Positions 32,041 to 47,332 of a DNA stretch of 64,000 nt are shown here, one piece after another. The position numbers were made by a program, and so were the translations under genes. The DNA is from Caenorhabditis remanei (taxonomy: Eukaryota > Nematoda > Chromadorea > Rhabditida > Rhabditidae), in NCBI RefSeq assembly GCF_010183535.1, contig NC_071330.1:13125717-13189716 (forward strand), given 5' to 3'. The notes below the pieces were generated by a model, which did no database searches, was not told where the DNA came from, and saw only the letters and a list, made by a program, of their open reading frames with translations. How positions within the stretch are numbered: position 1 is the stretch's first letter; the number at the start of each line of letters is the position of its first letter.

Positions 32041-35030
32041 ATGGCGAGGTTTGGAAGAGCAAGTAAGTTGGGAGTGCGCGCCAATGGGACCCCTTGTTAG
32101 GTTACTGTATCTCTACTGATATTTTTCAGAGCTCTTGATCTTCCTGGCCTGCTCGATTTTGACAACTGCCTCCAATGGCCTCAAACAATCAGCCGATATC
32201 GGCAATGCTAACTGTAAGTAGTTCAAGATCTCAGTTTCCACAATGAAAGTTCATTTTCAGATCCGCCTTCGAGCGATGAAATACACAATGATCCACAGAA
32301 GATGGATCGTCTCTACATTCCATCAGGCACTTATAGTAAGTTTGAATGATAGCTAGTAGTACTGTAGTCATCTAATTTGTTTCAGAAGTGACCAACAAGG
32401 ATCCACACCACCGTACTTACTCCGAACCCCACCCATCTGACTCCAAATCCGACCGCTCCCGTTTCCGACGTGATTCTAATGGTGAGTACTGTAGACAGAT
32501 AGGGCACCTCACTCTTTGTGAACCCGCGCCTCTAAGAGGCGGGTTCCAGAGCTACAATAAGTTCTTCATACTGTATCTTTCCCACCAATCAACCAACGTT
32601 TCTTTCAGAAAACTTCACAAGCATCGTCGATCGTATGGAAAAGATATCTCGAGTTGTCAATGGAATATCGATTCAGCAGGGAATCATCAATGGAACCATC
32701 AAACCGGATGTTCTCATCGCTGAGCTTCTCAACTTCGGAAGTGTCTCTTTGTCCGACATCGATGGAATCAAATTAGATGAACTTTCGAAGGTTGTCCAGG
32801 ATATTCAAAGTCTTTCGACTACGCTGGCAAAGAATGATGAAGTCGCAAGAATGGAGAAACGACTGACGACAATTAGCTTATTTGTTCGGGAATCAAATGG
32901 TGTCAGTGAGCTGAAAGAACCATCCAAAGAATACTCCAATGCTCTCATTGCTTGGAAGACTCTCAACGTTGACTGGACTAAATTCAATGAATTAAATACC
33001 TACTATTTGGGCTTTTTGAATGCAATTGAAACCTTCAAATCTCAATCTGTAGCTGTTGGTGACATCAATCTTGGCATTTCGACGCTGACGTACTTAGTCA
33101 ACAGTTTGGCTGCTGGAAATTTGGATACCTATTCTGACACTTTGAAATCTGACGTTCTCCGGAAGGCAGACTCCATTTTTGCTCCATTCATCAGTTTTCA
33201 AAAAAGTGTTGCTTCCTTCCGGAAGAACGAGAATCTCTTGATGTATAGTTCAACGAGGGACAGAACACCGTTAGGTGCTCTTCGAGATAAGTTGAATGCG
33301 TTGAATGAGGTCGGCAAAGGTGCGAAAGCGCATCTCTCGAATGTTTCCAAGTTGGGTCAACTATTCATCGGCCGTCACCATAGGAGTTCTGGAAACATTT
33401 TGATTCACACGAATGGATTTCCTAATGGTTTCAAAGATCTGGAGCAGGTTTCGGATGATTTGAAGGATCCGTGGATTGAACAAGCAGTTGATGGACAATC
33501 GGAATCTCTGGCAAAAGCATTGGTTCAGCTGAGGACTCTGGCGAGAGCCACTCGTTCTGTTGATGAAACTATGGGTCCCAAAACAAATGCGGAGACTGTG
33601 AGTATGGCTGACATTCACAAGAAAGTTACGATGCTGTCAGAAATGAATCATCCACTCGCTGATGTTGCTGGCAAACTTCAAGATATTCAAAATGCTTGCT
33701 CGTCAGTCAACGTGCAGCCTGACAGTCAAGATGCCTTTGTTCTCTTGCAGAACCAAATAGTTGAGTTCACAAAGAAGTTGAAAGCAGTCGATCATGTGAT
33801 CGCTGTGACCCATACCTTGAACACGGACAAGAACACTCAGCTGACAGCCGTGTCTCACATTTGCAAGTCTCATGTGGGGTCGAATTATGCTGAAACACAG
33901 GAAAATCTGAAAACCAGCAAGGAATATCAAGAAATTGTTGACTTGATACTGCCACTCAATGCTTCACTCGGATTGATTGGAAAAAGCGCTTCGTTAGAAC
34001 CACTAAGTAACATACTGCAGAACTATACAACGATTGCAACTTATGTGAAAGAATCCACATCGTTCACAAGCATGCTGAAGAATCTTCAAGGAATCAAGGA
34101 ATTGAGTCAAGTCGATGAAGTGCTCGATGCTCTTCGTAGTCATCGGGATATCAAGATTTCCAATTTCGATCCCGTCGCTGCGAAACTTGAAAAAGTCCGT
34201 CCGAAGCTGAAAGACCTTCAATCTTCGATTGGAAACATGAAAGGAGCTGACAGTTTGGAGAAGAAGTCGTTGGTCGAGATTCGCGATCTATTCAAGGATT
34301 CACAGAACATTGGTGGAGCGACTCGTGTCTTCCGGAGCATGCGGATGGTGAAGAAGAAGAACCAGACAGTGATGACTCCAGCGATGGAGAAGTTGATTCA
34401 GAATCAGTTGAAACACGTGAGTCAGCCACAACAGGACCAGTTGAATCAGTTGCTCGGATTGGACAAAGAATTGACGACCTTGATCGCCGCAATTGATAAG
34501 ATCGAGACTTCTGTGACGCCATCACCATCTACTGATCTGGTCTCCCTCTGGCCGATTTTCTCACTTGCTAATGGATCCCAAGGAATTCCAATGGACTTTT
34601 TGGAAATCAGTGAGACAATCGATGAGCTATCGAAGGACCCAAATCTGAAGAGCCATCAACAGGACCTTCTGAAGATCAAGGATGACTTGGACTCTTTGGA
34701 TTCGCTTGGTTTGGACTACTCGAAGCATCAGACTGCGATCAAGGAAACCGAGGAATCGTTGAAGCAACTCGACTTATTTTTTGAGTTGTTTAAGAAGAAG
34801 ATAACTCCGAAAAATGTATCTCAAGACAGAAAGGGACCATTGGAGAAGAGACCAACAGGTGAAGGCAAGAATCCAAGTAGTGATTCTAGAAGATCGGAGA
34901 AGATTGAACAGAAGGGAAGCCATCAGTAAGAAAAAAAATTATTTGAATGATTACTAACAATCATATTTTCAGTTTCAACTGCTGGCTCGTCATGGGGATC
35001 ACTCTTCTTCTTCTCGTATTGATAATTTGA
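32041..35030 (+). CDS. WSN-domain membrane protein A, without phosphatase domain
   Basis: Exons 32041-32062, 32130-32213, 32261-32335, 32386-32481, 32609-34925 and 34973-35030 give 883 residues. A signal peptide (LLIFLACSILTTASNG) opens it, then a basic, histidine- and serine-rich linker, then the WSN domain from about residue 93 (RMEKISRVVNGISIQQG ... VLIAELLNFGSVS). A long, mostly helical extracellular region follows. The last exon adds a hydrophobic tail (LVMGITLLLLVLII) right at the C-terminus, which could be a membrane anchor or a GPI signal. WSN is a nematode domain of unknown function often fused to PTP domains. The paralogue at 39868-45272 keeps such a PTP domain; this copy does not. 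A 3' UTR intron (35034-35077) follows the stop by three bases. Confidence 0.85.
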
Positions 35031-38627: not shown

Positions 38628-39512
38628 TTAGATATTTTCAGGGATTCTTCAGTTGTTTCGATGGTGCATCTGAAATTGATTGTTAATTTTTGTTTGCAGA
38701 ACGGTAGTCTTCTTGAATTTGTTAGTTCAGTAATGTGTGATCAGACCTGAAAAGATGTTTTATCGTGTGGTGGAATGATCAAAGAGGACATTATATATTT
38801 CAGATTCCCTCGGAAGGCAGTGTGAAGCACGTCGATTCTTCGAATTTAATTGAATTCCGTCTCAATTTTTCAATAAAGTTATTTTTTTACCTAAACTTTC
38901 TGAAATAATAGTTTTGAATTTATGCTAATTGTCGTGCTCTTTTCTTCTTCTTTTCGAAATGGGACAGTAGTAAACAACTGGGATTCTAGAATTGGTTATT
39001 CTTACCACAAAATTTGGGTTTTCTCTGACCATTTTCAGCCAAGATACGAGCTTCAGAAGGTTCCACGACTACCCGATTCCACGCGTCAAAAAAATGTTTT
39101 TCAAAAAGTGAAAATTGAAAGGTCAAGCAGCCACGTGGAATACTCGAAAAGTTCACAAAATCTTTTTTGTGACCCCTACGTGGCATTTTCCACTTGTTTT
39201 CTCTTTTTCTCATCATTACGACAGATTTATCGATTAAATTCGACAATCGAAACTAAAAGTAGGAGTTGTTCGCAAGAAAAAATCCAGAAAGAGCTTGCAA
39301 GGAGTCAAGATTTGGAGCAATGAGCAACATGAAGAACAGTGAGTTATCTTTCTTATTTGGGTTGCAATCGCGCTCCGTCTGATTTTACGTAGGATTTCAA
39401 TGGAGCGCGGTTGGAAAAGAAACGTGGAGAAAATGAAATTAATTTAATTAAAAAAAATAAATTCCCGTGATTTGAACTACCCCACTAACCCAGTTTGCTC
39501 TTTTTCCTTCCT

Positions 39513-39519
39513 TATATAA
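39513..39519 (+). promoter_or_regulatory. TATA box of the distal first exon, WSN gene B
   Basis: TTCCTTATATAACC, with the same upstream block as in gene A; the ATG of the distal exon is at 39595. Confidence 0.55.
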
Positions 39520-39594
39520 CCACTGCTTCCTTGAATTCAAATCAGTTTTCGATTTGTGATAAAACCAAAACTGACGCAAATACGAACTAATAGA

Positions 39595-39616
39595 ATGGCG
39601 AGCGCCAGAGGGTCAA
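39595..39616 (+). CDS. alternative first coding exon of WSN gene B
   Basis: 22 bases encoding MASARGS plus one base, identical to the distal exon of gene A and ending at a GTAAGTTGGG donor. It is compatible in phase with exon 2 at 39956. Confidence 0.55.
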
Positions 39617-39786
39617 GTAAGTTGGGAGCGGGCGCCCATGGGACCCCTGTTAGAATCTCTATCCGACTTTCCGTAGGATCTCTATGAAGTGCGATTGAAA
39701 AAAAAAACTTCCAGTAAGAAGTGAAAAACTTTCAATAAAATTGACGTGGACTACTCCACTAACCTATTGCGCTCTTTTTCCTTCCT

Positions 39787-39794
39787 TATATAAA
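39787..39794 (+). promoter_or_regulatory. TATA box of the proximal first exon, WSN gene B
   Basis: CCTTATATAAACAA, 81 bases before the ATG at 39868. Confidence 0.6.
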
Positions 39795-39867
39795 CAATCT
39801 TTCCCCCAAACGAAATCAGTTCTCGATTTGGGATTACAACGAATTGCCGCAAAGAAAAAACGTCAGA

Positions 39868-42800
39868 ATGGCGAGGTTTGGAAGAGCAAGTAAGTTGGGA
39901 GTGCGCGCCAATGGGATCCCCCCTTAGGTTACTGTAGCTATATTCCTATTTTCAGAGCTCTTGATCTTCCTGACCTGCTCGATTCTGACAACTGCCTCCA
40001 ATGGCCTCAAACACCCAGCCGATATCGGCAAAGCAAACTGTAAGGAGTTAAAGATTTCAGGATTCTAGAAAATTAAATGATTTTCAGATCCGCCTTCGAG
40101 CGATGATCTCCACAATGATCCACAGAAGATGGATCCTCTCTACATCCCACGAGGCACTTATGGTATGTTTGAATGATAGCTAGTAGTACTGTAGTCATCA
40201 ATATTGTTTCAGAAGTGACCAACAATGATCCACACCACCGTACTGGCTCCGAACCCCACCAATCTGACATCGAATCCGACCGCTCCCGCTTCCGACGTGA
40301 TTCTAATGGTGAGTACAGTAGGCAGATAGGGCAACTCACTCTTTGTGAGCTCGCAGCTCTGAGAGGCGGGCTCCAGGGATACAAGAAGTTCTTCAAAATG
40401 TATCTTTCCCATCAATCAATCAATATTTCTTTCAGGAAACTTCACAAGCATGGTCGATCGTATGGCAAAGGTTTCCCGCGTTGCCAATGGAATATCGATT
40501 CAGCAGGGAATCATCAATGGTACCATTAAACCGGATGTTCTCATCGCTGAGCTTCTCAACTTCGGAAGTGTCTCTTTGTCCGACATCGATGGAATCAAAT
40601 TAGATGAACTCTCGAAGGTTGTCCAGGAGATTCAAAGTCTTTCAACTAAGCTAGAAAAGGATGATGAAGTCACGAGAATGGAGAATCGACTGAAGACACT
40701 TAGCTTAATTGTTCGGGAATCGAATGGTGTCAGTGAGCTGAAAGAACCATCTACAGAATATTTGGATGCTCTCACTGGTTGGAAGAATCTCCAAGTTAAT
40801 TGGGATCCAATTCATGACTCTGTTCATGTTTCCGGTGTCATGATAACAAATGTAAAACTACTGGATTCTAAATCATTGATAGAATCAGAAATCAAAGCAT
40901 CAATCCGTGACATAGAGGATTTTGTTGATACATTGTTAAAAGATAACCTGGATGGATATTCTAAGCAGCTGAAGTCTGATGTTCTACGAAAAGGAGACAT
41001 CATTTTTGATCCATTCATCAGTTTTCAAAAAAGTGTTGCCTTGTTCAAAAAATACCAGAAACTCTTGACATACGTTGATGGTGTAGAGGAATCACTGCTT
41101 GAAAACCTTCGTGATCAACTGATTTTGTTGAGTGATGCCGTCAATGGTTCAAAAGCGAATCTATCAAATTTCTCCAAGTTGGAAGAACTATTCAATGGCC
41201 GCCATCATGGGAATTCTGGAAACATTTTGATTCACACAAATGGATTTCCTAATGGTTTCACTGATCTGGAGATGGTTTCGGATGATCTGAAGGATCCGTG
41301 GATTGAACAAGCAGTTGATGGACAATCGGAATCTCTGGCAAAAGCATTGGTTCAGCTGAGGACTCTGGCGAGAGACATTGAATCCGTTGATCGAACTATG
41401 GGTCTCAAGACAAATGCGGAGACTGTGAGTATGACTGACATTCACAAGAAAGTTACAATGCTGTCCAAATTGGTTCATCCATTCACTGATGTTGCTGGCA
41501 AACTTCTAGATATTCAAAATGCTTATTCAACAGCAAACGTGCTTCCTAAAAGTCAAGATGCCTTTGTTCTCTTACAGAACAAAATAGATAAGTTCACAAA
41601 GAAGTTGAAAGCAATCGATCATGTGATAGCTGTGACCCATACATTGAACACGGACAAGAAAACTCAGCTGACAGCCGTGTCTAACATTTGCAAGTCTCCT
41701 GTGGTTTCGAAGTATGCTGAAATACGGGATAAGCTGAAAAACAGTAAGGAATATCAAGAAATTGTGGAACATATTCTGACACTAAATTCTTCACTCGGGT
41801 TGATCGGAAAAAATGCTTCGTTTAATGAAACGTTGAATAATATACTGCAGGAGTATACAGTGATTGCAACCTATGTGAATCAGTCCAAATCGTTCACAAG
41901 CATGTTGAAGAGTCTTCAAGGGATTAAGGAATTGAGTCAAGTCGATGAAGTGATCGATGCTCTTCGAGGTTATCGGGATATCAAGATTTCCAGTTTCGAT
42001 CCAGTCGCCACGAAACTTGAAAAAGTCCGTCCGATGCTGAAAGACCTTCAATCTTCGATTGGAAACATGAAAGGAGCTGACAGTTTGGAGAAGAAGTCAT
42101 TGGTCGAGATTCGCGATTTGTTCAAGGATTCACAGAACATTGGTGGAGCGACTCGTGTCTTCCAGAGTATGCGGATGGTTAAGAAGAAGAACCAGACCGT
42201 GATGACTCCAGCGATGGTAGACGTGGTGAAAAAGTTGAAAAATATGAGTCCGAAACAACAGGAAGGGTTGAATCAGTTGCTCGGATTGGATGACGAGTTG
42301 ACAACCTTGATCGGTGCAATTGGAAAGATCGAGACTTCTGTGACGCCATCAACATCTACTGATCTGGTTTCCCTTTGGCCGATCTTCTCACTTGCTAATG
42401 GAGCCAAAGGAATTCCAATGGACTTTTTGGAAATCAGTCAAACTATTGAGATCATATCGAAGGACCCAAATCTGAAGAGCCATCAACAAGACCTTCTGAA
42501 GATCAAGAATGACTTGGACTCTTTGGATTCGCTTGGTTTGGACTACTCGAAGCATCAGACTGCGATCAAGGATACCGAGGAATCGTTGAAGCAACTCGAC
42601 TTGTTCTTCGCTTCTTACGAGAGAAAAGTCACTCCAATTGTCCCTACAGTACCTACACCGAAGACCTTGCCACCACCAACTGCACAAAGTTCAATCTCTG
42701 GATCCGCCGGAAACATTGATAACGAGAAACATTTAGAGAACACGATTCCGTAAGTGTTTGTATTATACTAATGAACTGTTGAAGAAACTGATATTTTACA

Positions 42801-45272
42801 GAGACTGGGTAATGTATGTTATTTTTGTTATCTCACTTATCGGCGTCGGGGTGAGTGGTGGCTTTTGTTGGAACCGGTTTGATCATTATAAGTCAAATCG
42901 AGGTGAGTGATTTCAGAGCAAAAAAATACAAATAACAAGAATCGTTTTCAGTGTTCCCAATTATGATCAACGAAAACTTATTCGAAGTCTACCTCGCGGA
43001 TATTGTCAGCAAAGTGGTTCGTTTCGCCGCCCAGTACAGGTATGTGTGCGTTGAGCGCCTCGCATTTTTTCAAAAATTCGACAAGAGAGAGTGTGCGAAT
43101 TGGAGAGACGCAGACATCATCTCTTTAATTCACACTTTCTCTCTCTCGTCGCATTTTCGCAAACTTTGAATTTTTACAGCGCCGTAATCACCTCCGAAGA
43201 CAAATCCAAGAAAGGTCAAAAATCCAAGAAAGGCCAGAAAGCCCAGAAAGGCCAGAAAGCCCAGAAAGGCCAGAAAGCCCAGAAAGGCCAGAAAGCCCAG
43301 AAAGGCCAGAAAGCCCAGAAAGGTCAGAATGCCGAGAAAGGCCAGATAGCCGAGAAAGACCAGAAAGCCGAGAAAGAGGAGGAAGAAGAGAAAGAGAAGA
43401 AATTACTGTACTCTGGTGCATTCAAGTTGTATTTCATGGCACTCTATGAGCACAATTGCCGACAAACTATTGCTGAAGAACCTAATCAACTGGTCTTGGA
43501 TCATGAAAAGTATCAAAGGTTTGATTCATCAATTTAAAAAATATCTAGACGAGCAAAACTTCTTACAGAGCAAATGAGCCGCTTTCGGATGTGAGCCCTC
43601 TATGGTTGATAAAGAAAAAGTCGTGGTTCGGCAATGTTCGGTATATGCATGCAAACCTGATAAAGTACAAGAACAACTTCAAGTTGGGACTCTTCCAAGC
43701 TCCTCAATTGGCTAACGCTGCTACTGGAGCGAAGGAAACCGTTGGAATGTTCTATTGGGCGATGAAAGAGCAGAAGGCTACGTTGATCGTGTGCATGGTG
43801 AAGATTGGTATCGAGTGTTGTCAATATTTCCCGGTGAAAGTCGGAGATAAGTTGACATTTGCTGATGGAAATCTCGTTGTCACATGCAAGTCTTTGGAGG
43901 AAGAGCATGACGGAAAAATTCGAATGCGCACTTTGGAAGTGAAGTTCAAGTGAGTGAATCCATTGTAGAAGTATAAATAATTCTCATTTTCAGAGGTTGC
44001 CGATCGTTCACCATCACCCACTCTCATTACGATGAATGGACGAACAAGCTCCCGGTAGACCTCTCTCCGATCATGTCCATTTTTGAGAAAATGGATAAGG
44101 AAAAAGTGGTTTTCATGCACTGTGACTTTGGTATTTATCGTTCAGGAATTATGGCTCGTGAGTTAATGTTAGAACACATGATTTTCTACGGAAATACTCA
44201 TTTCAGAGGTCCTTATGAACAAGACTCATTTGGAAATGGATCGTGGACGTCTAGCGTATGGATCGGCTGTGAATGACGTGAGAAAAATTCGTACTGGTGT
44301 CATTAAGAATGGAGTCGAGTTTCTGGATATGGTCATCCTCACTTTCAAATACTTCCGAACGGTAAGCTGAATCAGAATTAGTCCAAGATTCTATTCATTT
44401 GTTTACAGTTCGTCCCGGACATCAAACACTTCTCGAAGGAGACGAAAGAGCACATCTTCTTCAGCGAGTCTGCCATTGCACAGTATGTCCGTGACTTAGT
44501 TCACGTTGACCTAGATCTCATGGCACTGAACGAGATGAACCAGAAGAAAGTGGAATTCATGGAGAAGAGCAAGAAAGAAAAGATTGAGAAGAGCAAGAAA
44601 GAAGGAAAGAGTGAGAAGAAGGATGGGAAGAAGAGTGAGAAGAAGGATGGGAAGAAGAGTGAGAAGAAGGATGGGAAGAAGAGTGAGAAGAAGGCGAAAA
44701 GTGAGAAGAAGGGTGAAAAATCGAAAAAGAAGGTATCCGTGAAAGATGTGAAGGAGAGCAAGCCTGCAGCGAAAGACCCGAAAAAGAATCAAGGTCGTAG
44801 AAAGTCTAAACTACCATCTTGTGCGCCGAATCCCATGGATGATTTGCTTTGTGAACTTTCGTATTATACAAACAACCCAAAAATAAGCAATGACTTTAAG
44901 CATGATATCATCACAACGGACAAATTCCAAAAGAAACTCGAGAAGAAGTTGGATAATACGGTAGATGATGACGAAGACGTGCCTGATCAGCCTCCTGAAG
45001 AAGTAGAAAACACTCAAGAAATCACTGTTGAGGCCCCCGAAGAGCCGAAGGAAGGAGAGACGAAGCCGAAGGAAGGAGAGACAAAACCGAAGGAAGGAGA
45101 GACGAAGCCGAAGGAAGAAGTGAAGGAGAAGAAAAAGAAGAAGAGAAAGAATAAGACGTTGACGGAGTCGGTGGAATATGAGCCTGGAAAGGAATATCCG
45201 GTCGGAACGAGATTCAAGAGATTGGATGAGGAAATTTACCTTGACGACTTCTTGACGAATATCCTTAAGTAA
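39868..45272 (+). CDS. WSN-domain receptor-like protein B with PTP-like domain
   Basis: Twelve exons: 39868-39889, 39956-40039, 40088-40162, 40213-40308, 40436-42749, 42802-42902, 42952-43039, 43180-43518, 43569-43949, 43994-44157, 44207-44361 and 44409-45272, giving 1560 residues. Order: signal peptide, WSN domain from about residue 93, long helical ectodomain, one membrane helix (about 868-886, VIFVISLIGVGVSGG), a KGQKAQ-repeat linker (about 939-992), a tyrosine-phosphatase-like domain (about 1040-1290), and a lysine-rich tail with KKSEKKDG and KPKEGET repeats. In the PTP domain the signature is HCDFGIYRSG, keeping Cys-x5-Arg but not the usual SAGIG core. The WPD loop reads WTN, so the general-acid Asp is gone. 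I infer weak or no catalysis, possibly a substrate-binding role. Its paralogue A lacks everything after the ectodomain. Confidence 0.87.
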
Positions 45273-45323
45273 ACTCGATTAATTTTTGTATTATTGTATT
45301 GCCGCTGCAGTAGCGCGTTGCTG

Positions 45324-45329
45324 AATAAA
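45324..45329 (+). terminator. poly(A) signal of WSN gene B
   Basis: AATAAA 52 bases after the stop codon. Confidence 0.7.
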
Positions 45330-45684
45330 CTTGATTTTTGATGAGAAATTGTTGTATTTTTGGGCAAAAAATATTCAGAAAATCTAATTAGAACCGACAG
45401 ATAGTAGAAACTCAGAAAAATTGAACAAAATCTTATCGAAAACGGCCGTTTTAACGTTTAAACGGGGAAAAAAAAACTTCTAGAAACCATTCTCTAAACA
45501 GTGAATCTTCGGAGAAAAAGAGATAGATAAGCAAACTCGAAAACTGGCGGAAACGAGAAATCAGTTCTATTTTACCGAAGAAAAACGGGCTGGGGCACAT
45601 AAAAACAGCAAAAAAGCGCGTCATTGCAAGATCATAGAAAAATTTGCCCCGAAAATCAGTGTAAAAAGGCGAAAAAAGGAGATT

Positions 45685-45768
45685 TGCCGGGGAGGGGAAT
45701 CGAACCCCTAAAGGATTTACATCCACAGATTCCCCAAACCTGCGCCTTTGCCACTTAGCTACCCCGGC
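45685..45768 (-). tRNA. class II (long variable arm) tRNA with anticodon GGG
   Basis: The minus strand gives a complete 84-base cloverleaf. Acceptor GCCGGGG pairs with CCCCGGC, discriminator A. Anticodon stem CAGGT/ATCTG encloses loop TTGGGGA, so positions 34-36 are GGG (Pro codons). A 16-base variable region forms a 4-bp arm (GGAT/ATCC). The T arm is AGGGG TTCGATT CCCCT. The A box (TAGCTAAGTGG) and B box (GGTTCGATTCC) are intact and a T-run terminator follows. A long variable arm with A73 is the build of tRNA-Leu, not tRNA-Pro. This matches the nematode nev-tRNA class, described with Gly(CCC) and Ile(UAU) anticodons and shown in vitro to take leucine. GGG would be a different anticodon. Confidence 0.9.
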
Positions 45769-47332
45769 AATTAGAGAATTCGAGGTTGAAAACGATATGA
45801 TGCAAATTGTTTGATTACCTGGCATTACGGTATGCAAGAAATTAGGAAAATTTGATTTTGACTAGAACCGGCTGTTTTTTGAATATTAATGTTGGAATTT
45901 GGCTTCTAAAAATTAGGAATAACTTGAATTATTTTTAAATAGCAAAATATAGTTGAAAACATCTTTAATTTCTGTAAAAAACCAGCTTTAATTTTTCCAA
46001 TATCCGCAATATTGCGTCACGGTGTTTGCGTACCTCCGTTTTTTGTTGGCGCGAGGGCGCCATTTTCAGTTGTTTTTTCAGCGATTCTCCACCACTTTTT
46101 TCCAGTTTTTTTGCTCAATTTTTAGAATTTTTCGAGAGTTTTCAAATTTTCAGGCAGTTTTTTAATAAAGAATAAAGTTTTTCATCCATTTTTCATGATT
46201 TCATCCCTCTTTTTAATTGAATTCCGTCTTCCACCAACATTTTCTATCCGTTTCTTTATTTTCCGCCCGTAAAACCTCATATCGCTCTTCTGTTTTCCAA
46301 TAGAAAACACTAAATAAACAATAGCCACCTCCTCGTCGTCGTGTCGTCTCTTTATTGCAGATATCAGCACTTTTAGGTTGTTTTGCTGGCGGGAAACGTA
46401 CAAAGACAGGAAAATGTGTACTTTTGCCACGTTTTGGGCTCAAACTGGAAGTTTTTCTAATAATTTCGACAGTTTATTTCATGTTTCATGCTCTAGACGC
46501 ATCGGAAAAGTGCAAAACTTCTTGAAAATCGTTTTGCTCGCTACGAAATAGTACACTTATCTATTTTTCGTGTAAATTTTTTTTAATTCTTGCTGTTTTC
46601 CATTCGAAAGCGAAATTCTGATGAAGAACTATAAAATTACTTCATTTTGCACACATTCTTCGTCATTATTTACACTGAAACGGTGATTCCTGTTACTTGC
46701 CAGTTGGAACACGTGTGTTACGCCCTTTTTCAATGGACAAAGTGAGAAATTGTATTAGTTCCAATATGTTTTCCGATATTTTTCGCTGATTTTTACTAAA
46801 AAGAGTCAACTCACTTTTCTCTCTTTCCTTTGTACTCCCCCTCTCCAATTCTCAATAGTGGAGGTCTCTTTTGTTATCGGTTACCCATTTCATTCATTTT
46901 TAATGAGTTTTCGCCGCCGGAACTCATTTTTATGTGTTGCCGAGCGAAAAATTACTAAAAGTACGGAATATTGTCGTTTTCTATAGAAAATACTGGGAAT
47001 CAAGATGAATACATGCAGATATATCCGGATAATCAGAGATTAGTCAGTGGAGAGGAGAAATTTGCATAAATCTTCTGCTTTTCGCTTAGAATCTGCATTT
47101 TTCTCAATATATGCCAAAAATCGTGAAAAAACGGTTTTAAAACTCGATTTTCGGTAGTTTTGCTTCATATCACCTTATTTTCCCTTCAAGGGGGCCTAGT
47201 TTGTCATTTCTCCGATAAAAATTGATATTTCCAGTAGAAAAATATAGTTCCTTGCTCCGCCCATATTTCTCGCTTATTTCTTGTGCAATGTTGCAAAATT
47301 TTCGCCTCAATCCCCATTTTGCTCATTCCAGG
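45769..47332. other. spacer and promoter region upstream of uap-1
   Basis: AT-rich, with no convincing ORF on either strand. It ends in the CATTCCAG acceptor just before the uap-1 ATG, so the right part is probably promoter plus outron. A stretch near 46020-46060 is GC-richer (GTTGGCGCGAGGGCGCC). Confidence 0.5.

Follow-up and report, generated by a model that had tools for sequence, protein, structure and literature searches.

The window analysed here, a 64-kb stretch of the Caenorhabditis remanei genome (C3:13125717-13189716), carries a class II tRNA gene that combines a leucine-type body with the proline anticodon GGG, hereafter Pro(GGG) (Table 1). ARAGORN placed a tRNA with anticodon ggg at 45684-45769 (-), and the Rfam model RF00005 matched 45768-45685 (-) with a score of 54 bits (gathering score 29) and an E-value of 7.8e-09, covering the whole model (positions 1-71 of 71). 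Its orientation is minus-strand, a point on which the original prediction was silent. The central claim of that prediction, a class II tRNA of leucine build bearing GGG as a foreign anticodon, is upheld by the ARAGORN anticodon, by the match over the full covariance model, and by the nearest relatives of the gene, which include Leu(CAG), Leu(UAG), and Leu(UAA). The sole other tRNA recovered from the window by ARAGORN and Rfam was a tRNA-Gln(UUG) at 12783-12712.

Table 1. Features of the Pro(GGG) gene, its flanks, and its relatives. Positions without a contig prefix are those of the window.
Feature	Position	Strand	Basis or remark
Leucine-type class II tRNA gene with GGG (Pro) anticodon	45685..45768	-	ARAGORN, Rfam RF00005, family members
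Anticodon GGG (nt 34-36), loop UUGGGGA (nt 32-38)	45733..45735	-	Sequence, ARAGORN
16-nt variable region (nt 44-59), 4-bp stem GGAU/AUCC	45710..45725	-	Direct reading, cloverleaf pairing
Internal A box UAGCUAAGUGG	45751..45761	-	Sequence; fits the usual consensus
Internal B box GGUUCGAUUCC	45696..45706	-	Sequence; fits the usual consensus
T6 run, likely Pol III terminator	45672..45677	-	Sequence
TACCGTA, possible remnant of the upstream element of the Leu sisters	45826..45832	-	-64 from nt 1
Blocks common to the inverted segmental duplicate (C3:13060563 onward)	39377..45757	.	Outer limits within 6001 bases compared
Family members Leu(CAG), Leu(UAG), Leu(UAA)	C1:5484835-5489911		Cluster of divergent tRNA-Leu genes within about 5 kb
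Family member Val(CAC), intact	C1:8943295		
Family member Arg(CCU), intact	C5:14527403		
Family member Pro(GGG), 5'-truncated copy without nt 1-11	C3:13060563		Segmental duplicate 110 kb away

Direct reading of the gene recovered every predicted element, namely a 7-bp acceptor stem, A73, the 4-bp variable arm, A and B boxes, the loop UUGGGGA, and a T-run. When the cloverleaf was written by hand, 24 of 24 pairs were standard, two of them G-U wobbles. Both internal boxes match the usual consensus. The T6 run (45677-45672) begins 8 nt past A73; in C. elegans, analysis of the UM2/UM3 loci suggested that four Ts are sufficient (PMC2527325). The gene does not have the appearance of a tRNA pseudogene, as its stems and A and B boxes are intact; an external upstream element, described below, is mostly absent. 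In the minimum free energy (MFE) fold of the unmodified RNA, the acceptor, variable, and T stems were present, the anticodon stem was extended by three pairs into the loop, and nt 10-12 paired with nt 17-19 instead of with nt 23-25 as in the D stem. Folding energy alone (-36 kcal/mol, z = -1.95) is weak evidence for a tRNA because 11 of 200 shuffled sequences folded as well or better; the covariance match is the strong evidence on which the observation rests. A misassembled or misread anticodon is unlikely, since a second locus has the identical GGG.

A search of the whole genome (130,466,896 bases in 186 contigs) with the 84-nt Pro(GGG) sequence returned seven places. Patterns allowing up to three mismatches gave the identical seven when built from the 3' part of the gene and the six intact ones when built from the 5' part. 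Foreign anticodons (Val CAC, Arg CCU, and Pro GGG) were present in three of the six intact family genes, and the searches of the 130 Mb turned up a single intact GGG gene. Over 84 nt, Pro(GGG) differs from Val(CAC) at 4 positions, from Leu(CAG) at 8, from Arg(CCU) at 9, and from Leu(UAA) at 11, and the family Leu(UAG) gene is 81% identical to it. Shared states among the six genes conflict: at nt 12 and 28, Pro and Val agree with Leu(CAG) and Arg agrees with Leu(UAA), while nt 40 and 49 are common to Pro, Val, and Arg against both Leu(CAG) and Leu(UAA). The 28-mer at the family 3' end had no exact match in genome_contigs or viral_contigs, a result that tests horizontal origin little because matching was exact only.

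The positions separating Pro(GGG) from Val(CAC) are nt 34, 35, 36, and 39 only, and the chance that all three anticodon positions would be among four random changes in 84 nt is 4e-5. Such a pattern could arise if family bodies were kept for a non-decoding role, as a LeuRS substrate, a decoy, or a source of tRNA fragments, with the anticodon left to drift freely. Consistent with this are the concentration of three of the four differences in the anticodon, the three foreign anticodons carried by three close relatives, and the coverage of decoding by separate ordinary Leu genes. The numbers are small, however, the clustered trio retains Leu anticodons, and the window gene and its duplicate both carry GGG, so that we regard a non-decoding role as a rather unlikely explanation.

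Ordinary and nev-type genes in the same genome were counted by pattern. A D-arm-to-T-arm pattern with a T loop ending in ANTCC gave 51 matches: the seven of the Pro(GGG) family, 25 Leu(AAG), 3 Leu(UAG), 10 nev-Ile(UAU), 1 degenerate nev-Ile-like sequence, and 5 nev-Gly(CCC), the nev-Ile and nev-Gly matches being recognised by anticodon and variable arm. With a T loop ending in ANCCC there were 10 matches (3 UAA, 5 CAG, and 2 UAG). Both patterns combined give at least 25 Leu(AAG), at least 5 Leu(UAG), at least 5 Leu(CAG), and at least 3 Leu(UAA) ordinary genes, all lower bounds, as these are partial matches that miss intron-holding and divergent genes. An anticodon-arm pattern for ordinary tRNA-Pro, with the first anticodon base left free, gave 68 matches in the genome (53 UGG, 4 CGG, and 11 AGG); GGG occurred in none of these, which are partial matches and not whole genes. 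This agrees with the premise of the original prediction that eukaryotes have no ordinary tRNA-Pro(GGG), and Pro-GGG is listed by tRNAscan-SE 2.0 among the anticodons unexpected in eukaryotes (PMC8450103). In an RF00005 search of the genome, 63 of 12196 candidates were scored, and in 30 loci taken from it ARAGORN called class I tRNAs only.

The five nev-tRNA-Gly(CCC) matches lie at C3:10758635-11107904, four of them within 27 kb. Amplified nev-tRNA-Ile(UAU) genes occur at C1:4.96-5.04 Mb and 8.98 Mb with near-identical upstream sequence that ends in TTCCCATTTTTCAGAATAT, a motif similar to a 3' splice site. A dispersed repeat with a class II tRNA-like A box (TGGCCGAGTGGTCCAAGGCG) at its start and a conserved tail in most copies read has the look of a SINE derived from a tRNA; allowing two mismatches at most, the A-box pattern matched 348 places in the genome, real tRNAs included, versus 6 for a reversed control.

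In all six intact family genes the motif TACNGTA lies 61 to 64 nt before the start given by ARAGORN (-61 to -64). It is missing from this position in the 48 further unique tRNA genes compared, which were best-scoring and A-box-pattern loci and not a random sample. In the Leu members, TACAGTA is followed by an exact copy of the 17-mer CCTTGCTCATCTYAAAA, whose three exact matches in the genome all lie upstream of the family Leu(CAG), Leu(UAG), and Leu(UAA) genes. With one mismatch it was found at seven further places among the matches listed; at up to two mismatches there were 128 genome matches versus 84 for the reversed control, and weaker copies therefore mean little. Modified versions of the element precede Val(CAC) and Arg(CCU). 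An external promoter of the snRNA type (PSE) was considered and rejected, the family element being unlike the sequence upstream of 12 U6 loci when compared by eye. We infer that the family element is a promoter aid.

Upstream of the window gene, the TACCGTA at -64 is followed by none of this: the 18-mer of the remaining element was absent from the whole window at up to three mismatches. TACNGTA occurs at 1.2 per kb and CTACAGTAA is common in the window, so the TACCGTA is weak evidence on its own. CTACAGTAA was found at 14 places in the window versus 0.21 expected and is a dispersed repeat motif. The window gene thus appears likely to have lost an upstream promoter aid and to be weakly expressed, and it may be silent given that most of the element is absent. 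In that case it would be a relic, namely a tRNA-Leu duplicate that has shed its upstream element and fallen silent but has yet to decay. In addition to the missing element, two observations favour a relic: the second GGG copy is without nt 1-11 and one of its variable-arm pairs is broken, and the intact copy is the only one found in 130 Mb. The authors of tRNAscan-SE considered high-scoring tRNAs with unexpected anticodons such as Pro-GGG to be unusual and probably without function, but did not class them as pseudogenes outright (PMC8450103). We consider a relic possible but less probable than a leucine-accepting tRNA of little effect; the latter is conditional on expression, and the two likelihoods overlap and do not divide a whole between them.

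Several features of the tRNA body speak against a relic. All 24 pairs are intact, and pair 31-39 shows compensating change: Arg(CCU) has C-G there, Val(CAC) has U.G, Pro(GGG) has U-A, and both Leu(CAG) and Leu(UAA) have A-U; in Leu(UAG) it is a C-A mismatch. Among the six intact sequences, 99.3% of cells pair, a level reached by 4 of 500 shuffles in a comparison that does not control for relatedness. The body of Pro(GGG) looks constrained because its stems are kept with compensating change.

The inverted segmental duplicate provides a second comparison. Its blocks comprise tRNA nt 12-84, part of a protein-tyrosine-phosphatase gene, and parts of a WSN-domain gene. Between the window and the duplicate, the tRNA has 1 mismatch in 73, whereas 21 of 165 ungapped columns differ in the adjoining flank (33 more columns are gapped) and 140 of 727 differ in the phosphatase block. 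If both copies drifted, the probability of so few changes in the tRNA is 6e-4 at the flank rate and 3e-6 at the phosphatase rate, which argues against a relic. The truncated copy may have been dead from birth, since homology starts at tRNA nt 12; these probabilities then become 0.049 and 0.005, and the tRNA stands out only weakly against the flank. The comparison with the duplicate thus offers moderate evidence that the window gene is under constraint. The GGG anticodon is present in both the window gene and the truncated copy and is therefore older than the duplication. Two similar WSN-domain ORFs of ~800 aa lie in the window at 32536-34929 and 40363-42753, and parts of a further WSN-domain copy are in the duplicate near C3:13.06 Mb.

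The Pro(GGG) gene probably originated when a divergent tRNA-Leu gene was copied and its anticodon changed to GGG. The transcript would be made by Pol III from the A and B boxes, trimmed at its ends, and given CCA, like other nev-type tRNAs, and LeuRS would recognise A73 and the class II body and charge it mostly with leucine. Leucine charging is expected over proline charging because of these two features, eukaryal tRNA-Pro having C73. For yeast tRNA-Leu(UAG), leucylation in vivo was strongly affected by A73 and marginally by A35 and G36, while in vitro A35 and G36 were essential to leucine identity (PMC9976931); Pro(GGG) has G35 and G36 and not A35. Its D loop, 1 nt shorter than that of Leu(AAG), might also weaken recognition by LeuRS.

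Some proline charging is possible, as G1-C72, G35, and G36 of Pro(GGG) match features of tRNA-Pro. Eukaryal tRNA-Pro is described as having G1-C72 and C73, and bacterial proline determinants include G35 and G36 (PMC9976931). A complete switch of identity would make the gene a new, proline-charged tRNA-Pro serving as an extra decoder of CCC and CCU. Its G35 and G36 are proline determinants in E. coli, its G1-C72 pair is that of eukaryal tRNA-Pro, and anticodon recognition is said to be evolutionarily maintained (PMC9976931), but the gene has A73 instead of C73, a class II variable arm, and otherwise the body of the Leu family. We consider such a switch very improbable.

A base G34 pairs with C and U by the wobble rules, and leucyl-tRNA(GGG) would accordingly be expected to pair with CCC and CCU codons. 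If the tRNA were charged with leucine and used, these proline codons could be read as leucine, a disruptive substitution. Across six stop-to-stop ORFs in the window, 17 of 156 proline codons were CCC and 20 were CCU; free use of Pro(GGG) would therefore be costly, and it is probably little used. It would also compete with the products of many ordinary tRNA-Pro genes. This competition, together with probably weak promoter support, makes a negligible effect on the proteome probable.

The original prediction had gone further and proposed a possible source of programmed mistranslation. In such a scheme, Leu-tRNA(GGG) would place leucine at CCC and CCU codons under some condition. The anticodon with its two pairing partners would permit this, as would A73 and the class II body, and nev-tRNAs are able to enter ribosomes and were used in a cell-free system (PMC4300185). 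On the other side, proteomics detected no mistranslation by nev-tRNA-Gly in C. elegans, that is, no leucine at Gly(GGG) codons (PMC4300185). Furthermore, the upstream element of the window gene is mostly absent, the 68 ordinary tRNA-Pro pattern matches suggest heavy competition, and CCC and CCU are far from being nearly unused in the window ORFs. Programmed mistranslation is thus not supported, and we hold it to be highly unlikely.

Taken together, we think it probable that Pro(GGG), if expressed, is a leucine-accepting, nev-like tRNA that is weak, outcompeted at CCC and CCU, and of negligible effect on the proteome. A broader and distinctly speculative interpretation is that the seven loci represent a second anticodon-diversifying tRNA-Leu family, in which the body is selected, the Leu members have their own upstream element, and the anticodons of derived copies are free, the products being either leucyl-tRNAs for conditional misreading or non-decoding bodies. 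The four-base difference between Pro(GGG) and Val(CAC), three bases of which are the anticodon, makes these two genes a clean pair for asking whether the family decodes or has another role.

Anticodon changes of this general kind have precedents. Rogers and Griffiths-Jones (2014, PMC3923123) described alloacceptor anticodon shifts, in which an anticodon has moved to that of another amino acid, for nematodes as well as further taxa. Those shifts were mostly single-base (PMC3923123), whereas the Pro(GGG) anticodon differs from Leu(CAG) at two of three bases and from Val(CAC) at all three. Among ordinary tRNAs, Leu(AAG) shares with Pro(GGG) the class II form, A73, and 52 of 92 alignment columns, and G37 is common to Pro(GGG) and the ordinary Leu AAG, UAG, and CAG genes. 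In addition to its shorter D loop, Pro(GGG) differs from Leu(AAG) in having UA for UG at nt 8-9 and another acceptor stem and variable arm. Ordinary tRNA-Pro (UGG, CGG, and AGG) has G35, G36, and G37 in common with Pro(GGG), but in the 68 tRNA-Pro matches the anticodon arm is another one and the variable loop has 5 nt. With A73 and a 16-nt class II variable region in place of a class I variable loop and the C73 of eukaryal tRNA-Pro (PMC9976931), Pro(GGG) does not resemble a tRNA-Pro in body.

The closest parallel is with the nev-tRNAs, of which a review counts over 100 across six genomes of nematodes, naming C. remanei in its table (PMC4033280). Like these, Pro(GGG) has a class II body, a perfect cloverleaf, and an anticodon of a class I amino acid, neither Leu nor Ser, in a nematode nuclear genome; its variable region falls inside the nev-tRNA range of 15-20 nt (PMC4300185), and A73 is shared with nev-Ile. 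Nev-Gly(CCC) and nev-Ile(UAU) were reported to accept no amino acid but leucine in vitro, to receive CCA, and to be exported and weakly expressed (PMC4300185). The backbones differ: nev-Ile is identical to Pro(GGG) at 59 of 89 alignment columns, versus 73 to 80 of 84 for four members of its own family. There were 10 nev-Ile and 5 nev-Gly matches against one intact Pro(GGG) found, and the anticodon here is that of Pro. The nev-type assignment in the original prediction therefore stands as to a Leu body with a foreign anticodon and needs amending as to backbone, which is that of a second family and not of nev-Ile(UAU) or nev-Gly(CCC). A nematode nev-tRNA-Pro(GGG) was not named in the parts of the literature searched; the gene may already be listed in the primary catalogue (Hamashima et al. 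2012, NAR). This kind of tRNA is already known in worms. Of note here are the make-up of the family, the upstream element common to its members, and a difference that centres on the anticodon. Judged from its sequence, Pro(GGG) would function on paper as a nev-tRNA built on another backbone, which suggests that anticodon swapping on nematode leucine tRNA bodies is not confined to the backbones of nev-Gly and nev-Ile.
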